Part shown: in pieces, positions 9,699-48,761 of the stretch | Layout of the letters: each line of letters opens with the position of its first letter | How positions within the stretch are numbered: the stretch's first letter is position 1 | From: Clostridium sp. | GTDB taxonomy: Bacteria; Bacillota; Clostridia; Clostridiales; Clostridiaceae | Reading direction: 5' to 3' | Assembly: GCA_022773025.1 (NCBI GenBank) | Contig: JALEZF010000046.1 | Location: 1 to 50,586 of the forward strand | Length of the DNA stretch: 50,586 nucleotides | The notes under the pieces: generated by a model | The model's input: the letters and a program-made list of their open reading frames with translations, nothing else | What the model was told of the DNA's origin: nothing | Databases searched by the model: none | Program-made: the position numbers and the translations under genes

Positions 9699-10403
9699 AT
9701 GCTGAAGATAGCTTTATGTGATGATGACATAAATATAATAAATAGGATGGAAGAGATATTAACAAAAGAAATCTCTAATTGTCATATAGATACTTATGAT
9801 AGTGGGGAGGCACTTATAGAAAAGAAAAAATCCTATGACATAATCTTTCTTGATATAGATATGGGAGGAATGAATGGTATAGAAACGGGGAAGAGGATAA
9901 GGAGCTATGACAAGAAGGTCTATATAATTTATGTGACAAATCTTTCTGATTATAGAAAGTATGCCTTTTCTCTTCATGCTTTTGGATATTTGGAGAAGCC
10001 TATCAAAAGGGAAGAAATTTTAAATGAAATTCGGGATGTTATATCCTACAAAAATGAAGCTGAGACTACAGAAGATATGTTGGAGTTTTCTACAGAAGAA
10101 GGCATAGTGAGGATTGAAGTTAGAGAAATATATTATTTTGAATACAGTGATAGGAGAATATATATGGAAACTCAAAAGGGGAGGTATACCTTGAGGCAGA
10201 GAATGAATGATATGGTAAAGGACATGGAACAGTATGGTTTTGTAATGCCTCACAAGAGTTTTTGTGTGAATCTATTTCATGTGAAAAAGGTAAAGGGATA
10301 TGACATTTTAATCACTAATGGAGAGGTAATACCCCTATCTCAAAAGAAGTCACCTTATTTTAGGGAGCAGCTCAATATATTTTTGGAGCACCTAATAGGG
10401 TGA
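9699..10403 (+). CDS. LytTR-family response regulator (AgrA-like)
   Basis: 234 residues. The receiver domain spans 1-120: acidic DDD near the N-terminus, phospho-acceptor Asp in IIFLDIDMGGMNG, and Lys in YLEKPIKREE. The LytTR DNA-binding domain spans about 130-230 (GIVRIEVREIYYFEYSDRR, MPHKSFCVNL). GGAGTGAGAG precedes the ATG. It heads a cluster with a GHKL kinase, a YhfC-type protease and two small envelope proteins. It probably controls this operon through the direct repeats upstream. Confidence 0.92.
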   Translation: MLKIALCDDDINIINRMEEILTKEISNCHIDTYDSGEALIEKKKSYDIIFLDIDMGGMNGIETGKRIRSYDKKVYIIYVTNLSDYRKYAFSLHAFGYLEKPIKREEILNEIRDVISYKNEAETTEDMLEFSTEEGIVRIEVREIYYFEYSDRRIYMETQKGRYTLRQRMNDMVKDMEQYGFVMPHKSFCVNLFHVKKVKGYDILITNGEVIPLSQKKSPYFREQLNIFLEHLIG

Positions 10404-39846: not shown

Positions 39847-39891
39847 AAAATAAATTTGTATAAAAGTATTTATAGAGCTCATAGTAATTTT

Positions 39892-40188
39892 ATGAATTCA
39901 GGAGACTTATGGTATGAATGCATTAATACTGTAAGAAATATGGAGACGGTAAGTCATATAATATTTTGCAATGACATTCTTAAAACGCCTCCAGTAAAAG
40001 TCTTTTTACTTTTATATAAGGATAAATTTCATAATTTGACTGACACAGAGAAGAAAGCACTAGGCGCATTTTGGGCTTTTATATTTAAAGAAGTGTTTGG
40101 GTATCAAGAAAAGAAGAATGTATCTATTAGCACATGTTCAGTAAAAACAGCAGCCTATTATTTAAAGCCTAAAAAGAGTTTTTATTGA
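39892..40188 (+). CDS. hypothetical protein upstream of cas6
   Basis: 98 residues from ATG 39892; the frame is open back to 39814 and TTG at 39856 is an alternative. No good ribosome binding site is seen for either, and the sequence before the ATG (AHSNF) still reads like protein, so the 5' end may have been lost. The protein is basic, has NMETVSHIIFCNDILKTPPVKVFLLLYKDKF and a TEKKALGAFWAFIFKEVFG helix. I do not recognise a family. It sits between the module's terminator and the cas operon. Confidence 0.5.
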   Translation: MNSGDLWYECINTVRNMETVSHIIFCNDILKTPPVKVFLLLYKDKFHNLTDTEKKALGAFWAFIFKEVFGYQEKKNVSISTCSVKTAAYYLKPKKSFY

Positions 40189-40233: not shown

Positions 40234-40926
40234 ATGAAGGTATATGAAATAGAAGTTAAGTGCTTTTTGTTGAAAGACATAAAAATATCAGAAGCTAGTA
40301 GTAAAATATGTGCATTCATAGATGGAGAATTAGCGAGAAATCCGGAATTATTAGAGCTACATAATAAAAATACGTATAAAAATTACTGTTTTAATTCCTT
40401 TTACCCGTTGGAGCAAGATAAAATTTACAAGCAAGATAAAATATATACATTTCAAATAAGAACTATAGATAAAAGGTTAGCAGATGTTTTCTTGAATAAC
40501 CTTAAAAATAGGTACACTGACCAAATAAAAGGCTTAACTACTTCTATAAGAATAATTCCACAAAAGCCTATAGAGAAACTTTATTCAATTTCTCCGGCCA
40601 TAATGAAAACCGAGAATGGTTATTGGAAGAATAATATATCTTTAAGTGAATTCGAACGTCATCTAAAGGAAAATTTAATAAAGAAATATAACCTAATAAT
40701 GGATACAAAAATAGATGAGGATTTTCAATTATACACCACACTTGAATTTATGAATAAAAAGCCTGTTACCTTAGAGTATAAAGACATAAAGCTATTAGGT
40801 GATAAAATCTGCATGCAGATAGAAAGTAATAAAACAGCTCAGGACATAGCATATATGGCAATAGGAACTGGGATTTTAGAGGTTAATGCTCGAGGTGCTG
40901 GTTATGTAAATTATAGGTGGTTGTAG
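40234..40926 (+). CDS. cas6: CRISPR endoribonuclease Cas6 (type I-B)
   Basis: 230 residues, two ferredoxin-like domains. The glycine-rich loop near the C-terminus (GTGILEVNARGAGYVNYRW) is the signature of Cas6. The N-terminal half has LLELHNKNTYKNYCFNSFYP, whose His lies where Cas6b enzymes have a catalytic His. It cuts the repeat RNA to leave the 8-nt 5' handle, here ATTTAAAC. GGGAGTGA precedes the ATG. First gene of the cas operon; cas8b follows 12 bases after its stop. Confidence 0.92.
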   Translation: MKVYEIEVKCFLLKDIKISEASSKICAFIDGELARNPELLELHNKNTYKNYCFNSFYPLEQDKIYKQDKIYTFQIRTIDKRLADVFLNNLKNRYTDQIKGLTTSIRIIPQKPIEKLYSISPAIMKTENGYWKNNISLSEFERHLKENLIKKYNLIMDTKIDEDFQLYTTLEFMNKKPVTLEYKDIKLLGDKICMQIESNKTAQDIAYMAIGTGILEVNARGAGYVNYRWL

Positions 40927-40938
40927 GGAGGTGATATA

Positions 40939-42681
40939 GTGTTAGAACAAGCGTTAAAATACTTTAATATCACATATGAGAAAAAGGGGGATGCCTTAAT
41001 ACTAGATAATTATATCCCTAGCGACGGAACTTACGTAATAGTAAAACCTTCTGATGAAGGTTTTGAAATTATAGATAAGGTTGATATAAAACAAGATAAG
41101 AAGACAAAAGAGATAGATAGGAGCAATAAGTATTTAGACTTTATATGCATAGCAGATTATTATAGTGGACTTATAGATATGAATAAGCCTATTGATGGAA
41201 AAAAGATAATTCATAGCAATAACTATCTATCATTTTTCGTGAAGAAGGATAGTTTTAGTAGTAAGAAGCTTAAAGATGAGATAATAGAAAATTACTATAA
41301 TGTGTTACGTAATCCAAGATTAAAATATTCAAAACCTAAGGCCAAGGCGCTATATAATTTAGTAGAAGAAGAAATAGGCGCAGTTGATGAAGAAAAACTA
41401 AATAAAATAGAGGAATGGATAAAGGAAAATATATTTGAATTAGGTAATAGCGTGACAGGTAAAGATTATTTAAAGATATTCTTTTATTATGATGAAAAGG
41501 AATTTGAACAAGAAGGTAAAAGGTATTTGATTCCCAATATATATAATAACAATGATTTTAATGAGATAGTTGATGGAGATGTATACGGACTTCCAAACAA
41601 TAATATGGGCTTGAATGCTAAGAAACCTTACTTAGAGAATAAGACTAGAAAAGTAAAAGTACCCTACTTGATTAATCAAAATCAAGTGTTGTCACAGAAA
41701 AAGTTTTTTGATTATTTGATGAATCAAGTTTGCATAGGTAAATACACAATATACATGAATCAAGAAGAAATAGTCCCTTTAGGTAGTAATGAATTACCGG
41801 CTAAGGAGTTCCAAGGAATATATTTTAGGATAAAAAAAGGAAAAGAAGTTGAAATCCATGATTTTGATGTGATTTCAAAATATAATCCAAAGCTTATAAA
41901 AGAATTTGAATATGTCAATGTCCTTGATGCAGATTATGCTGTTTTAAAACAATCCTATGAAAGTATTCATACACTTGAGGATATGAATCAATTGATTAAT
42001 GATGTAATGTTTAGCAAAATGCTTATAAGCAACTATTTTACAGATGCAAAAGATATTTCTATAAAGGATCAGAAGATAAAGCAGAACATACTTTTTGCAA
42101 GGGATACGTTAATTGATTGGTTCTACAAGGATAGATGGGTTAATGCATGGAAAGTATTGGATAGAGTGTCGTTAGAGTTACTTAAACATGCTATTGAATG
42201 TGGGTATGGAATAAGGGCAATAAACCAGTGTAATTTAAGGTTGTCTCTAAAAAATTATTTTGAAGGAGGAGAAAAGATGGCAGATGTGATAAGAGACTTG
42301 AAAGAAAATCTAAAAGAAAAAATTAAGGATAAGGATACATCATATATAGAAAGTGATAGAGAATATTTATTTGCAGTAGGTCAGATGGCAGCTTATTTGC
42401 TTTCAAAGAGTAAGACTAAAAAACAGATGTTATCAATGATTAATCCATTTTTAAATATAAAGAAAGATGAAATAATAAAGGAAAGATTGAAGGGATTATT
42501 CAAAAAATACAATTATGATCTTGGTAATTATAAAGAACCTAGAAATTTGTATGCAATGATTGCAGGATACCAAATGGAAGGACAGATAAAAGAGGATATG
42601 ATTATAGTAGGATATCTTCATAGTAATATTTTATATGAAAAAAAGGAAGAAAATAAAGGAGGAGAAAATGATGGAAAATAG
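40939..42681 (+). CDS. cas8b: type I-B Cascade large subunit Cas8b (Csh1)
   Basis: 580 residues of the clostridial Csh1/Cas8b type, beginning MLEQALKYFNITYEKKGDALIL with GDVYGLPNNNMGLNAKKPYL in the middle. It is the Cascade subunit that usually recognises the PAM. GGGAGGTGATAT precedes GTG. Its last 134 codons have an internal start (separate entry). The cas7 start lies inside its final codons. Low similarity in this family means the name is given by position, length and overall pattern. Confidence 0.88.
   Translation: MLEQALKYFNITYEKKGDALILDNYIPSDGTYVIVKPSDEGFEIIDKVDIKQDKKTKEIDRSNKYLDFICIADYYSGLIDMNKPIDGKKIIHSNNYLSFFVKKDSFSSKKLKDEIIENYYNVLRNPRLKYSKPKAKALYNLVEEEIGAVDEEKLNKIEEWIKENIFELGNSVTGKDYLKIFFYYDEKEFEQEGKRYLIPNIYNNNDFNEIVDGDVYGLPNNNMGLNAKKPYLENKTRKVKVPYLINQNQVLSQKKFFDYLMNQVCIGKYTIYMNQEEIVPLGSNELPAKEFQGIYFRIKKGKEVEIHDFDVISKYNPKLIKEFEYVNVLDADYAVLKQSYESIHTLEDMNQLINDVMFSKMLISNYFTDAKDISIKDQKIKQNILFARDTLIDWFYKDRWVNAWKVLDRVSLELLKHAIECGYGIRAINQCNLRLSLKNYFEGGEKMADVIRDLKENLKEKIKDKDTSYIESDREYLFAVGQMAAYLLSKSKTKKQMLSMINPFLNIKKDEIIKERLKGLFKKYNYDLGNYKEPRNLYAMIAGYQMEGQIKEDMIIVGYLHSNILYEKKEENKGGENDGK
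42263..42279 (+). promoter_or_regulatory. internal ribosome binding site and start in cas8b
   Basis: AAGGAGGAG (42263-42271) lies 7 bases from an in-frame ATG at 42277, a consensus Shine-Dalgarno stronger than that of cas8b itself. It falls just where an independently translated small subunit would begin. Confidence 0.8.
42277..42681 (+). CDS. cas11b: Cascade small subunit Cas11b, internal translation product of cas8b
   Basis: 134 residues, identical in frame and sequence to the C-terminus of Cas8b: MADVIRDLKENLKEKIKDK, then AVGQMAAYLLSKSKTKKQML and LYAMIAGYQMEGQIKEDM. Mostly helical, as small subunits are. Independent translation of Cas11 from within the cas8b gene has been shown for other type I-B and related systems. 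Here it is inferred from the strong ribosome binding site, the fitting length and the absence of any separate small-subunit gene. Confidence 0.75.
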   Translation: MADVIRDLKENLKEKIKDKDTSYIESDREYLFAVGQMAAYLLSKSKTKKQMLSMINPFLNIKKDEIIKERLKGLFKKYNYDLGNYKEPRNLYAMIAGYQMEGQIKEDMIIVGYLHSNILYEKKEENKGGENDGK

Positions 42682-43633
42682 AGTTTATGGAGTACTAGGT
42701 ATATCATCTATTATGGCTAATTGGAATGCTGATTTTACAGGATATCCAAAGACAATTTCTACAGGAGAAATTTTCGGAAGTGATAAGGCTTTAAAGTACC
42801 CTATGAAAAAGTTATGGGACAATAATGGCGAAAAAGTATTATATATAAAGTCTATGAAGCTATCTGAAGATAAAAATAAGGAAATCAACTTAGTTCCAAG
42901 ATCACTTAAAGAACGTTATGAATTTATTTTTAATGAAAAAGATTTGAAAGCAAACAAGGATAGTGGAGCAGTTCTAAAAAATCTATTTTCAGCAATAGAC
43001 GTAAAAAACTTTGGAGCAACATTTGCAGAGGAAGGTAATAATATTTCTATAACAGGAGCAGTACAAATAGGTCAAGGTTTCAACAAATATGAATACTCAT
43101 ATTTTGAAGACCAGTCTATTCTATCACCTTTTAGAGATGCATCTGTTAAGGAAAAAAACAAAGGTACAGACAAAGAAGATGCTGAGGCTAAAAACTCAAC
43201 TCTAGGAAATAAAATTGTGAGTAATGAAGCCCATTATTTCTATCCATTTACAATAAATCCTTTAGCATATAAGGAATTTGTTGAGCTAGGAGTGACAGAG
43301 GGATATACAGAGGATGACTACGGAAAATTTAAAGAAGCGTCCATAAGCTCTGCTACTGCTTTTGCAACAAACTCTAAGGTTGGATGTGAAAATGAATTTG
43401 CATTATTTGTAGAAACAGAAAAGGATTTGTATATTCCTAATTTAGATAAATATATAGAGTTTAAAAAGCTCGAAGATAAGAATGTAATCAAGATAACTTG
43501 TGGGAAATTACTTAACGATTTGAAACATAGGATATCAAATATAGAAATTTATTATAATCCATATACAACTACCATAGAAACAGATATAGAAGGTGCAAAA
43601 GTATTCAATATATTTACTAAGCAAGAGGTGTAG
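42668..43633 (+). CDS. cas7: Cascade backbone subunit Cas7 (Csh2, type I-B)
   Basis: 321 residues from ATG 42668 (ATG 42671 also possible). GGAGGAG precedes them. The N-terminus RVYGVLGISSIMANWNADFTGYPKT and the central NIVSNEAHYFYPFTINP-like stretch match Csh2, the RNA-binding subunit that coats the crRNA. It overlaps the end of cas8b by about 14 bases, suggesting coupled translation. It is followed three bases after the stop by cas5. Confidence 0.93.
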   Translation: MMENRVYGVLGISSIMANWNADFTGYPKTISTGEIFGSDKALKYPMKKLWDNNGEKVLYIKSMKLSEDKNKEINLVPRSLKERYEFIFNEKDLKANKDSGAVLKNLFSAIDVKNFGATFAEEGNNISITGAVQIGQGFNKYEYSYFEDQSILSPFRDASVKEKNKGTDKEDAEAKNSTLGNKIVSNEAHYFYPFTINPLAYKEFVELGVTEGYTEDDYGKFKEASISSATAFATNSKVGCENEFALFVETEKDLYIPNLDKYIEFKKLEDKNVIKITCGKLLNDLKHRISNIEIYYNPYTTTIETDIEGAKVFNIFTKQEV

Positions 43634-43636
43634 AAA

Positions 43637-44386
43637 ATGAATGCACTAAAGTTTACTTTAACAGGAAGGACTGCATTTTTTAAAAAACCGGATGTTAACA
43701 CCTATTTATATTTTACTTACGGACATATTCATAAGGTAGCACTTCTTGGTATATTTGGAGCTATATTAGGATATAAGGGATATAATCAAATGAATAGTAA
43801 AGATGATTATCCTGAGTTTTATAATAAATTAAAGAATTTAAAGATTTCTATAGTTCCTAAAGAATGTAGTGTATCTAAAAAGGTTCAAGTGTTCAACAAT
43901 TCAGTAGGATATGCATCTAAGGAACAAGGGGGAAACTTAATTGTAAATGAGCAATGGCTTGAAAATCCAAGTTGGGATATATATGTGCTTATTGATAATG
44001 AAGAGGCTGAAAACTTAAGTAGCTCAATTATAAATAACAAATATGTATATCTGCCATATTTGGGTAAGAATGACCATCCAGCAGATATTATAGATGCAGA
44101 GATTATTACTAATATTGATTATAAAGAAATTGATGAACTTTCTATTGATAGCATGTTTTTATCAAAGGATTTTGAGTTCATAATTGAAGAATACGATGTG
44201 GATGAAGATGATGAAGAACATGAATGTGAGAATATTTATAAGTATGAAGAAGCATTACCTGTATCATTAAATCAGGATACCAATGGATATGAACTTGAAA
44301 TTTTAGTTATGACAAATCAAAAATTGAAAAATATATCTGGTATTAAAGTGTATAAGGATAATGATAGAAATATAGTATTTTTTTAA
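43637..44386 (+). CDS. cas5: Cascade subunit Cas5 (type I-B)
   Basis: 249 residues. ALKFTLTGRTAFFKKPDVNTYLYFTYGHIHKVALLGIFGAILGYKG is the typical Cas5 N-terminal RAMP domain (the aromatic YGHIHK loop occurs in clostridial Cas5b). Cas5 binds the 5' handle of the crRNA. Close spacing on both sides places it in the Cascade operon; AAGCAAGAGGTG lies before its ATG. Confidence 0.93.
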   Translation: MNALKFTLTGRTAFFKKPDVNTYLYFTYGHIHKVALLGIFGAILGYKGYNQMNSKDDYPEFYNKLKNLKISIVPKECSVSKKVQVFNNSVGYASKEQGGNLIVNEQWLENPSWDIYVLIDNEEAENLSSSIINNKYVYLPYLGKNDHPADIIDAEIITNIDYKEIDELSIDSMFLSKDFEFIIEEYDVDEDDEEHECENIYKYEEALPVSLNQDTNGYELEILVMTNQKLKNISGIKVYKDNDRNIVFF

Positions 44387-44428: not shown

Positions 44429-46966
44429 ATGTATTTTGATGGAATAAGTAAAATCAATATAGATGAACATGTAAATGAAAATTACAATATTTATGCTCAT
44501 GAGAACAAGGGTAATTATGAAACCTTAAAGGAGCATATAACTCTGTGTGAAAAATACTTTTTTATGATAATAAAAGAAAAAGGTTTAGAAGAGATGTTTT
44601 TAAATATAGAAAAGGGATTTTTAGGTAATGCCTCTGTAATATCGAAAAGTTTTTTTAAAGAAATGCTTTTGAACACAATTATGATGCATGATATGGGGAA
44701 GGTAAATCCATGGTTTCAAGAGAAGCAGCTTGGAAATAAACTTGAAATTAAAGAAGCAGCTAAATTTAATAACTCAAGGCATTCCTTAATTTCCTCTATA
44801 CTATATCTGAATTATTTTATTCCAAAGATAAAAGAATGTCCCAAAGAAGAAAGAGATATAGTTAGAGATTTTATGATGATAAATGCATACATAATTTCCA
44901 GGCATCACGGTGATTTGAACAGTTTTGATGACTTCAAAGAGCTTTTTGAAGAGTATTCAGGAGATGGATGGAGACTATTGTATGAGCAGAAGATATTATA
45001 TGAGAAAACATATAAATATCCTTTGAAAATATCACTTAAGACTATAGATGGGAACTTTCACAAATTAAAGCTGTATGAAGAAAAACTTTCACAGGAAAAG
45101 AATATTGCTAGGTACATATATGCAAGGCTCTTAATGTCTATACTATTTGCCTGTGATTTTTACTCCACATCTGAATATATGGATGGTGTAGAGATTAATG
45201 ATATAGGTTCACTAAATAATATAGCTGAATTTTATGATACCTATAAACAAGGAAAGATATATAAGTTCATAAGAGAATATGAAGGGAAGCAATACTCTAA
45301 AACAAAAGACTTTTCTAAAATAAAAGACATAAATATTTTGAGAAATGAAATGTTCTTAGACGCAGAAAATGAAATCTCAAAAAATATTTCAGCTAGTATC
45401 TTCTATTTAGAGGCGCCAACTGGAAGTGGTAAGAGTAATGTGGCAACTAACTTGAGTTTTAAGCTATTGGAAGAAGATAAATCAAAGAATAAAATCTTTT
45501 ATGTATATCCATTTAATACATTAATAGAGCAAAATGTTGAAACCTTAAGTAAGGTTTTTGAAAATGAACCTGATATATTGAATAAAATTTCGGTAATTAA
45601 TTCTATAACACCTATTGATAAAAAAGATGAGACGGAAGAAGTTATGGACTTTAATTACTACAAAAAAATACTTCTCAATAGGCAGTTTTTAAACTATCCA
45701 ATGGTACTTACAACTCATGTGAGTATATTTAAATATTTATTTTCAACAACTAAAGAAGATATATTTCCACTACACCAGCTTGCAAATAGCGTTATAGTTT
45801 TGGATGAAATTCAAAGTTATAAGAACATGATATGGAGAGAGATAATATCATTCTTAGATGTATATGCAAAACTGCTAAATATAAAATTTATAATAATGTC
45901 AGCAACTCTTCCTAATTTTGATGAAATGCTAAATGATGTAACTGGCACTAAAAGATTAATAGGTGATAGAAATAAGTATTTTAAGAACCCAATATTTAAA
46001 GATAGAGTTAAAGTGGATTTTTCATTAGTGCAATGTGAAGGTATAGTTGAAATGCTTTTCAATCATGTTAAGAAAAACTCTTTTAGGAAAAAGAAAATTT
46101 TAGTTGAATTTATATCAAAGAAAAGTGCATATGACTTTTATCAAAGGCTAAAAGATGATGAAGAGATACTATCCGATATTGAGCTAATGACTGGTGATGA
46201 TAACTCTGATGAACGTAAGAGAATAATAAGAGAAGTTAAGGCTTCACAAGATATAATACTTGTAGCAACTCAAGTTATTGAGGCAGGAGTAGACATAGAT
46301 ATGGATATAGGATATAAAGATATATCTTTGCTAGATAATGATGAGCAGTTTTTAGGCAGAATTAATAGGTCATGTCTTAAGGATGGGTGTGTCGTTTATT
46401 TTTTTAATTTGGACAATACAATTCAAATCTATAAGGGAGACATAAGAAACAATAAAGAATTTTCTCTAAATGATGCTTCAATGAGAGTAATTTTAGAGAA
46501 TAAAGATTTCGGAGAGTACTATAAAAAAATAATTGATCAGTTAAAAGTAGTGACAGCAAAAGAAAATGATAATAATACAGAAATGTTTTTTAAATTAAAA
46601 GTAGGAGAATTAAATTTTGATGCTGTAAGAGAAAAGATGAAACTTATAGATGAAGCTAAGGACATGTATGTATATCTAAGTCATAATATCACAACAGATG
46701 ATGGTAAAGTCATTAATGGAAATGAAGTATGGGATGAATATAAAGCTTTATTACAAAATGATAAGATTGATTATGCTGAGAAAAGAGTAAAATTATCAAA
46801 AGTAAAAGCTGATATGAATAAATTTATATATAGGATAAAAAAATCCTACATAAACTACAATGATATTATTGGAGAATTATACTTCATTGAAAATGGTGAT
46901 AAATATTTCGATAATGGTAAATTAAATCGAAAGAAGTTTGTAGAAGGGATAGGTGATTTTTTATAA
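44429..46966 (+). CDS. cas3: CRISPR nuclease-helicase Cas3 (HD + helicase)
   Basis: 845 residues. The HD nuclease is N-terminal: His36 (KEHITLCEKYF), His87-Asp88 (MMHDMGK) and SRHHGD. The helicase follows with Walker A APTGSGKS (about 328), DEIQ-type box VLDEIQSYK (about 457), MSATLP, and the motif VI-like QFLGRINRS. The enzyme is recruited by Cascade to unwind and shred target DNA. AGGAGAAT precedes the ATG. Its stop is immediately followed by the cas4 start. Confidence 0.96.
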   Translation: MYFDGISKINIDEHVNENYNIYAHENKGNYETLKEHITLCEKYFFMIIKEKGLEEMFLNIEKGFLGNASVISKSFFKEMLLNTIMMHDMGKVNPWFQEKQLGNKLEIKEAAKFNNSRHSLISSILYLNYFIPKIKECPKEERDIVRDFMMINAYIISRHHGDLNSFDDFKELFEEYSGDGWRLLYEQKILYEKTYKYPLKISLKTIDGNFHKLKLYEEKLSQEKNIARYIYARLLMSILFACDFYSTSEYMDGVEINDIGSLNNIAEFYDTYKQGKIYKFIREYEGKQYSKTKDFSKIKDINILRNEMFLDAENEISKNISASIFYLEAPTGSGKSNVATNLSFKLLEEDKSKNKIFYVYPFNTLIEQNVETLSKVFENEPDILNKISVINSITPIDKKDETEEVMDFNYYKKILLNRQFLNYPMVLTTHVSIFKYLFSTTKEDIFPLHQLANSVIVLDEIQSYKNMIWREIISFLDVYAKLLNIKFIIMSATLPNFDEMLNDVTGTKRLIGDRNKYFKNPIFKDRVKVDFSLVQCEGIVEMLFNHVKKNSFRKKKILVEFISKKSAYDFYQRLKDDEEILSDIELMTGDDNSDERKRIIREVKASQDIILVATQVIEAGVDIDMDIGYKDISLLDNDEQFLGRINRSCLKDGCVVYFFNLDNTIQIYKGDIRNNKEFSLNDASMRVILENKDFGEYYKKIIDQLKVVTAKENDNNTEMFFKLKVGELNFDAVREKMKLIDEAKDMYVYLSHNITTDDGKVINGNEVWDEYKALLQNDKIDYAEKRVKLSKVKADMNKFIYRIKKSYINYNDIIGELYFIENGDKYFDNGKLNRKKFVEGIGDFL

Positions 46967-47461
46967 ATGAAAGTGAATGGAACCTTAATTAACTATTATT
47001 TTCATTGCAAAAGACAATGTTACCTACACGGAAACAGGCTCAACTTAGAAGATAATAGTGAAGATGTAAAGATTGGTAAAGCTATACATGAAGAGAAAAG
47101 TGAGCAGAGCAATAATACAGAAATAGAGATAGACAATATAAAAATAGACAAGCTTACAAAGGACTATTTGGTAGAAGTAAAGAAATCTGATGCAGACGTA
47201 GAGGCAGCAAAGTGGCAGCTTGCATACTATCTAAAGGTACTTAAAGATAAAGGAATAGAAAGAAAAGGAAAATTAGAGTTTGTAGAAAAAAATAAAACTA
47301 CAAGTAAAGTAATATATATTGAGCTTAATGATGAAATTATAAAAGAACTAGATTCATATTTGACTTCTATAGAAAATTTATTAAAGCAAGAAGAAGTTCC
47401 AACTATATTGAATAAGCCTCAATGTAAAAAATGTGCATATTATGAATACTGTTATATATAG
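46967..47461 (+). CDS. cas4: CRISPR adaptation nuclease Cas4
   Basis: 164 residues. Cys residues at CKRQC and the C-terminal CKKCAYYEYC bind an iron-sulfur cluster, and the RecB-like nuclease core includes DYLVEVKKSD with the catalytic acidic and lysine residues. In type I-B systems Cas4 trims prespacers to fit the PAM and acts with Cas1. It starts directly at the base after the cas3 stop codon. Confidence 0.94.
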   Translation: MKVNGTLINYYFHCKRQCYLHGNRLNLEDNSEDVKIGKAIHEEKSEQSNNTEIEIDNIKIDKLTKDYLVEVKKSDADVEAAKWQLAYYLKVLKDKGIERKGKLEFVEKNKTTSKVIYIELNDEIIKELDSYLTSIENLLKQEEVPTILNKPQCKKCAYYEYCYI

Positions 47462-47472
47462 GAGATGAAAAT

Positions 47473-48471
47473 ATGGGAACCACTAAGTATATAACATCTA
47501 TGGGAGAGCTCTCAAGAAAAGATAATTCACTATGTTTTAGAAAGGATGGGAAGAATTTATACATTCCTATTGAAAACACAAAAGAAATATATTGTTTGAA
47601 TGAAGTAAGTATAAATACAAAACTATTGGATTTTCTATCAGCTAATAATGTCATAGTTCATTTCTTTAATTATTATGAAGGATATAGTGGAACATTCTAT
47701 CCTAGAAATCAGTACAATAGTGGAAAACTTTTAATTAAGCAGGTAGAGACTTTTAATAATAGACGTATGGAAGTAGCTAAGGCCATAGTAAAAGCAATAG
47801 GTGTTAATATAAAGGAAGTCCTATACCATTATTACAAACATAATAAGAAAGAAGTAAAGAAAACAATAGATTGGATAAGCAATGAATTAGACTATAGACT
47901 TTCGATGTGTAATACAATAAATGAGCTCATGTCAGTAGAGGGTGAGATTTGGCAGAGATTTTATAGTGAGTTCAAAAATATTTTACCTGAGGATTTTATA
48001 ATGAATAAAAGAGTAAAGAGACCACCTGATAATCCAATCAATGCTCTTATATCTTTTGGGAATACATTATTATACACAAAAACTATTTCTGCAATATACA
48101 GAACTCACTTGGATCAGCGGATAAGTTTTCTTCACGAACCATCTGAGGGAAGATTTTCATTGAGCTTAGATATAAGTGAAGCTTTTAAACCTGTAATAGT
48201 GTACAAAACTATATTTGAATTAGTTAATAATAAAAGAATTCAAGTAAGTAAGCATTTTGATAAAAAGGTTAATTATTGTCTTTTGAATGAGGAAGGAAGA
48301 AACATATTTATAACAGCCTTTGAAGAGCGATTAGAGTCAGTTTTTCCTCATCCTAAACTAAAAAGAAAAGTAACATATAGAACAGCAATAAAATTGGATT
48401 GTTATAAGCTCATAAAATTTATAATGGAAGACAAAGAGTTCATTCCATTTAGCCTAAAGGAGAATATGTAG
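47473..48471 (+). CDS. cas1: CRISPR integrase Cas1 (type I-B)
   Basis: 332 residues. Metal-binding residues lie in LMSVEGEIWQRFY (Glu), FLHEPSEGRFSLSLDISEAFKPV (His, then Asp). With Cas2 it inserts new spacers at the leader end of the array. GGAGATG precedes the ATG; cas2 begins 2 bases after its stop. Confidence 0.97.
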   Translation: MGTTKYITSMGELSRKDNSLCFRKDGKNLYIPIENTKEIYCLNEVSINTKLLDFLSANNVIVHFFNYYEGYSGTFYPRNQYNSGKLLIKQVETFNNRRMEVAKAIVKAIGVNIKEVLYHYYKHNKKEVKKTIDWISNELDYRLSMCNTINELMSVEGEIWQRFYSEFKNILPEDFIMNKRVKRPPDNPINALISFGNTLLYTKTISAIYRTHLDQRISFLHEPSEGRFSLSLDISEAFKPVIVYKTIFELVNNKRIQVSKHFDKKVNYCLLNEEGRNIFITAFEERLESVFPHPKLKRKVTYRTAIKLDCYKLIKFIMEDKEFIPFSLKENM

Positions 48472-48473
48472 CC

Positions 48474-48761
48474 ATGAGTAAGCAAATAAACTATAATTAT
48501 GCCTTTTTATTTTATGATGTAAATGAAAAACGAGTTCAAAAAGTATTTAAGGTGTGTAAAAAATATTTATCTCATTTTCAAAAATCAGTATTTCGAGGAG
48601 AAATAACTCCATCTAAATTGATTTCTTTACGTAAAGACCTCAATAAAGTAATAGATAAGCAAGAAGACTTTATATGTATAGTGAAACTTATGAATGATAG
48701 TGTATTTGGAGAAGAAATTTTAGGAGGCGGAACTCCAACTGGAGAAAATCTAATAATATAA
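48474..48761 (+). CDS. cas2: CRISPR adaptation protein Cas2
   Basis: 95 residues, a small ferredoxin-like fold. NYAFLFYDVNEKRVQKVFKVCKKYLSHFQKSVFRGEIT is the N-terminal strand and helix with the conserved Asp. It forms the dimer bridge of the Cas1-Cas2 complex. Last cas gene; the array leader follows. Confidence 0.96.
   Translation: MSKQINYNYAFLFYDVNEKRVQKVFKVCKKYLSHFQKSVFRGEITPSKLISLRKDLNKVIDKQEDFICIVKLMNDSVFGEEILGGGTPTGENLII

Follow-up and report, generated by a model that had tools for sequence, protein, structure and literature searches.

A predicted cas11b gene nested in frame within cas8b of a clostridial type I-B CRISPR-Cas locus

The window analysed here is a 50,586-nt stretch of DNA from a Clostridium sp. 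(GenBank assembly GCA_022773025.1), comprising an entire contig (JALEZF010000046.1, C18 in our numbering) of a genome of 3.15 Mb in 114 contigs that is 98% complete. It carries a type I-B cas operon, in which the gene for the large subunit, cas8b, contains an in-frame start codon with its own Shine-Dalgarno (SD) sequence ahead of the part encoding the C-terminal helical domain. Comparison with related sequences indicates that this nested cas11b gene is very probably real, and we consider it highly probable that the cas8b mRNA has two ribosome entry sites, the internal one giving Cas11b. Initiation at GTG 40939 would produce the Cas8b large subunit, and the internal AAGGAGGAG would direct a second initiation at ATG 42277 that produces Cas11b as the last 134 residues of Cas8b, ending at the same stop codon, which the SD and start of cas7 overlap. 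By analogy with published systems Cas11b protein is expected to be made, and several copies would join Cascade along its belly and hold the non-target strand. Observed directly were the site itself, its conservation, its maintenance at the nucleotide level, a shift in one clade, and no second Cas11b-like sequence in the genome.

The two-proteins-from-one-gene trick is itself already known, and the novelty is modest, lying in the scale of the conservation test, the maintenance of the signal at the nucleotide level and the single shift of the start. An earlier report, presumably McBride 2020, is said to have described internal small subunits as widespread.

The internal start site and its conservation

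A sequence-only reading had placed the internal ATG at 42277, in frame at codon 447 of cas8b and 134 residues from the stop, which was borne out by reading the DNA directly and by the list of open reading frames (ORFs). Its 7-base spacing is right for the AGGAGG core (42264-42269), and the whole AAGGAGGAG lies 5 bases from the ATG. SD strength was expressed as the pairing energy with the nine-letter anti-SD of 16S rRNA. AAGGAGGAG pairs at -12.1 kcal/mol, the same energy as at the GTG 40939 start of cas8b itself. As a control set we used the 44 mechanically called ORFs of at least 120 aa in the window, taking as gene start the start with the best SD in the first fifth. Among their 263 internal in-frame ATGs only ATG 42277 stands at -12.1, and four reach -8, while among the 44 ORF starts, themselves chosen for the best SD, one is stronger and one equal; therefore the internal site is stronger than that of most genes here, as had been claimed. 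When GTG and TTG are counted as well, an internal in-frame TTG at 10191 (-12.4) exceeds the cas8b site, and this TTG is possibly the true start of its ORF.

Relatives were collected from the same family, where the Cas8b profile matched in 46 of 206 genomes (50 matches, with four degenerate or marginal ones omitted), and from a scan of named genomes, of which the best 80 of 179 relatives were used. The resulting 126 loci gave 99 distinct proteins, and leaving out two frame-broken genes (L008 and L044) resulted in 97 distinct intact genes from Clostridium, Lachnospiraceae, Peptostreptococcaceae, Eubacteriaceae and others. The frame-broken cas8b copies (L008/L010 and L044, in genomes G033 and G226) retain an open Cas11b part preceded by an SD and ATG.

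We defined the linker as the stretch between the alignment columns of Tyr440 and Ile462. The check on homologues that the sequence-only reading had proposed found an in-frame linker start with a pairing energy of -4 or better in all 97 genes (94 ATG, two GTG and one TTG), of which 74 have it at the same codon and 23 elsewhere in the linker; this supports the idea that the window locus encodes an internal Cas11b. The threshold of -8 is reached by the linker start in 88/97 genes, versus 6/993 of the other in-frame ATGs in the same genes. Because the best start within the linker was picked, equal-sized windows elsewhere in the genes form a fairer control, and only 20/2065 of these reach -8. In 90/97 genes the linker ranks first among the windows (the exceptions being L015, L078, L092, L094, L099, L116 and L117). 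A stricter recount, allowing the SD only at bases -16 to -4, gave 83/97 linkers and 13/2065 windows at -8, again with the linker best in 90/97. Predicted mRNA structure is weaker around the linker start, with a median of -3.8 versus -6.2 kcal/mol at 689 control ATGs of similar G+C content, although this is also expected from a purine-rich site alone.

Four plasmid-borne relatives (one from Fusobacteriota, two from Campylobacterota and one from Alkaliphilus/Natronincolaceae) were tallied separately from the 97 genes, and in all four the strongest internal start lies 124-155 residues from the C-terminus, with energies of -8.5 to -10.2. At each of the four cas8b sites, which very probably yield two proteins, the record annotates one gene, named hypothetical protein. 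Between cas8b and cas7 of the Arcobacter cloacae plasmid (L132:3175-5414) lie two genes, one for an AAA ATPase and one for a hypothetical protein.

The Cas11b structure model is helical (mean predicted local distance difference test score, pLDDT, of 84), and in the Cas8b model Met447 begins a helix after a four-residue break. The fold comparison proposed by the sequence-only reading pointed to the type I-C Cas8c C-terminus and Cas11c, the subtype of most Cascade rows in the fold lists, with modest scores. The 134-residue tail by itself also matches the end of the PADLOC PDLC01507 profile.

A shifted start in one clade

The best start lies 15 residues before the alignment anchor in 74/97 genes and 11 or 12 residues before it in 20, while three differ. 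Nineteen of the 20 shifted genes form one clade with support of 100 (Shimodaira-Hasegawa-like approximate likelihood ratio test, SH-aLRT, on a quick maximum-likelihood tree), 12 of which are labelled Lachnospiraceae; in this clade the start precedes the anchor by 11 residues, except in one gene, where the distance is 12. The 20th gene (L009) is on a very divergent branch and its alignment is uncertain. An ATG is retained at the old position in 6/19 shifted genes (L090, L099, L103, L105, L114 and L126), and many genes of the clade have an SD that overlaps the old start position or is downstream of it. As the unrestricted count let the SD sit 12 bases from the start in about five genes of the clade, we repeated it with the SD confined to -16 to -4: the same start was still best in 19/19, with 13/19 at -8 or better and the other six (L103, L105, L114, L117, L121 and L127) between -6.6 and -7.3. 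The geometry is less convincing in L105, L114, L121 and L127, because there a GGAGG precedes the old start at 12 bases from the new ATG. A shift of the start is predicted by selection on initiation and not by selection on a residue. It is thus likely that in this clade of 19/97 genes the nested start moved 3-4 codons downstream, and that selection on initiation itself, and not on a fixed residue, preserves the two-proteins-per-gene arrangement throughout the I-B family of clostridia, with Fusobacteriota and Campylobacterota probably included. The shifted start also provides a natural experiment for telling which start is used.

Alternative explanations

Cas8b could be a single fused protein with no separate product, the motif being a side effect of a linker conserved at the protein level (Glu-Gly-Gly-Glu, then Met-Ala-Asp), and many of the genes that start at the common position do have Gly-Gly there. 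We resampled the eight codons before the start from each gene's own usage with the residues unchanged, in 200 sets. One result counts against internal initiation, as the window gene is not significant alone: 52% of its synonymous redraws are equally strong, and only 15/97 genes, the window gene not among them, fall individually in the lowest 5% of redraws. The significance comes from the family set, where the mean SD energy of the 97 genes is -10.37 versus -8.44 for the redraws (standard deviation of set means 0.22), with 92/97 genes stronger than their own redraw mean and none of the 200 sets as strong as observed (the strongest at -9.05). The linker residues also vary, and the GGAGG core present in 62 genes is read in phase 0 in 44, in phase 2 in 12 and in phase 1 in six; therefore the same nucleotides encode, for example, Gly-Gly, Lys-Glu-Glu or Arg-Arg, and the remaining 35 genes carry other cores, for instance GGGGG, AGGAG or weaker ones. 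Together with the clade that has a shifted start and an SD of its own, this makes a by-product of the linker very unlikely.

Slightly less likely again is a small subunit released by proteolysis of Cas8b. In C. thermocellum and M. maripaludis, a short piece of Cas8b was formerly read as fragmentation (Richter 2017, as cited in PMC11899642), but proteolysis leaves the conservation of the SD-start pair, its phases and its shift unexplained, and in Haloferax a Met-to-Ala change abolished the product (PMC11899642). The least probable alternative is a separate cas11 elsewhere, with the internal site being minor. The operon had been said to lack a separate small-subunit gene, and the ORF list indeed has none between the cas genes, but a 110-aa ORF (39856-40188) lies immediately before cas6, and a gene could have been missed in a draft of so many contigs. 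In the rest of the genome neither a Cas11b-like nor a Cse2-like gene was found, in a search that did not extend to the profiles of Csa5, Csm2 and Cmr5. The Cas11b sequence gave no other clear match in the genome (the next at E 0.03 and 0.96), and the Cse2 profile PF09485 gave none at E up to 1, with a control search positive in 4/14 genomes. Relatives of the 110-aa ORF were found in four other genomes of 200 in the family, none of which is among the family genomes matched by the Cas8b profile; among the cas8b loci examined it was found only at the window's own locus, and Pfam, NCBIfam and PADLOC gave no match to it.

Known systems and the surrounding locus

The claim that type I-B Cas11 can come from inside the large-subunit gene is already established (PMC11899642, PMC11096372). 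In the I-B system of Haloferax volcanii, as is predicted for the window, Cas11b starts in frame at an internal Met in the 3' part of cas8b, as shown by a tag, mass spectrometry and the Met-to-Ala change, and is needed for effective interference; H. volcanii is archaeal, with a potential SD of GGATG and a larger product (25.5 kDa calculated) (PMC11899642), whereas the window has a strong bacterial GGAGG-type SD. The cas8b of Synechocystis PCC 6714 is similarly described as containing an internal ribosome-binding site for Cas11b, and each Cascade has three Cas11b copies, although its large subunit belongs to the branch first named Cmx8 (PMC11096372). Thermotoga maritima I-B1 is, like the window, a bacterial I-B system with a predicted internal Cas11 start in cas8b; Cas8b without Cas11 failed to co-purify, and in E. 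coli the internal site stayed silent, which the authors presume to reflect a suboptimal site (PMC13199841). The small subunit of Desulfovibrio vulgaris is identical to the C-terminus of the large subunit and made via an internal ribosome-binding site, and the same paper refers to earlier work in which subunits of this kind were reported as widespread in I-B, I-C and I-D (PMC7684278), but this Cas8c/Cas11c is of subtype I-C and has no sequence match with the window-family profiles. A profile of the window Cas8b family gave no sequence match with Cascade chains in the PDB. In a review of the C. difficile system, the genes listed for the I-B operon do not include cas11 (PMC6079278), and the excerpts of PMC11127173 and PMC12669027 contain nothing on internal starts in I-B.

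Recoding, tagging or moving a clostridial cas8b can unknowingly lose Cas11b. Endogenous type I-B editing has reportedly been achieved in C. tyrobutyricum, going by a reference title, and the cas8b of this species belongs to the set of 97 (L033/L123). With the aligned set, the Cas11b start can be marked in I-B loci that lack annotation.

The host gene of the internal start is a type I-B cas8b, matching PDLC01507 (Cas8b) at E 1.6e-191 and TIGR02591 with 105.6 bits (cut-off 104.05). It is the second gene of an operon ordered cas6, cas8b, cas7, cas5b, cas3, cas4, cas1b and cas2, followed by a CRISPR array reaching the contig end (Table 1).

Table 1. Features of the type I-B locus, in window coordinates
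Feature	Position	Strand	Evidence
cas6	40234..40926	+	TIGR01877, E 2.5e-21
cas8b, large subunit, 580 aa, GTG start 40939, TAG stop 42681	40939..42681	+	PADLOC PDLC01507, TIGR02591
Internal Shine-Dalgarno AAGGAGGAG	42263..42271	+	Sequence; pairing -12.1 kcal/mol
cas11b, predicted nested in-frame gene, 134 aa, ATG start, stop common with cas8b	42277..42681	+	SD and start in 97/97 intact relatives; helical model
Shine-Dalgarno AAAGGAGGAG of cas7, within 3' end of cas8b/cas11b	42655..42664	+	Sequence; -11.7 kcal/mol
cas7 (ATG 42668 or 42671), overlapping cas8b/cas11b stop	42668..43633	+	Pfam PF05107, E 9.3e-39
cas5b	43637..44386	+	TIGR02592, E 6.8e-53
cas3 (helicase and HD)	44429..46966	+	TIGR01587, TIGR01596
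cas4	46967..47461	+	TIGR00372
cas1b	47473..48471	+	TIGR03641, E 1.1e-128
cas2	48474..48761	+	TIGR01573, E 5.6e-12
CRISPR array, last repeat copy cut by contig end	48938..50586	+	30-nt repeat, 26 copies seen

The chosen cas7 start lies upstream of the cas8b end in 47/94 loci. In the window, the cas7 site at 42655-42673, inside the end of cas8b, nearly repeats the letters of the cas11b site (AAGGAGGAGAAAA, then ATG).
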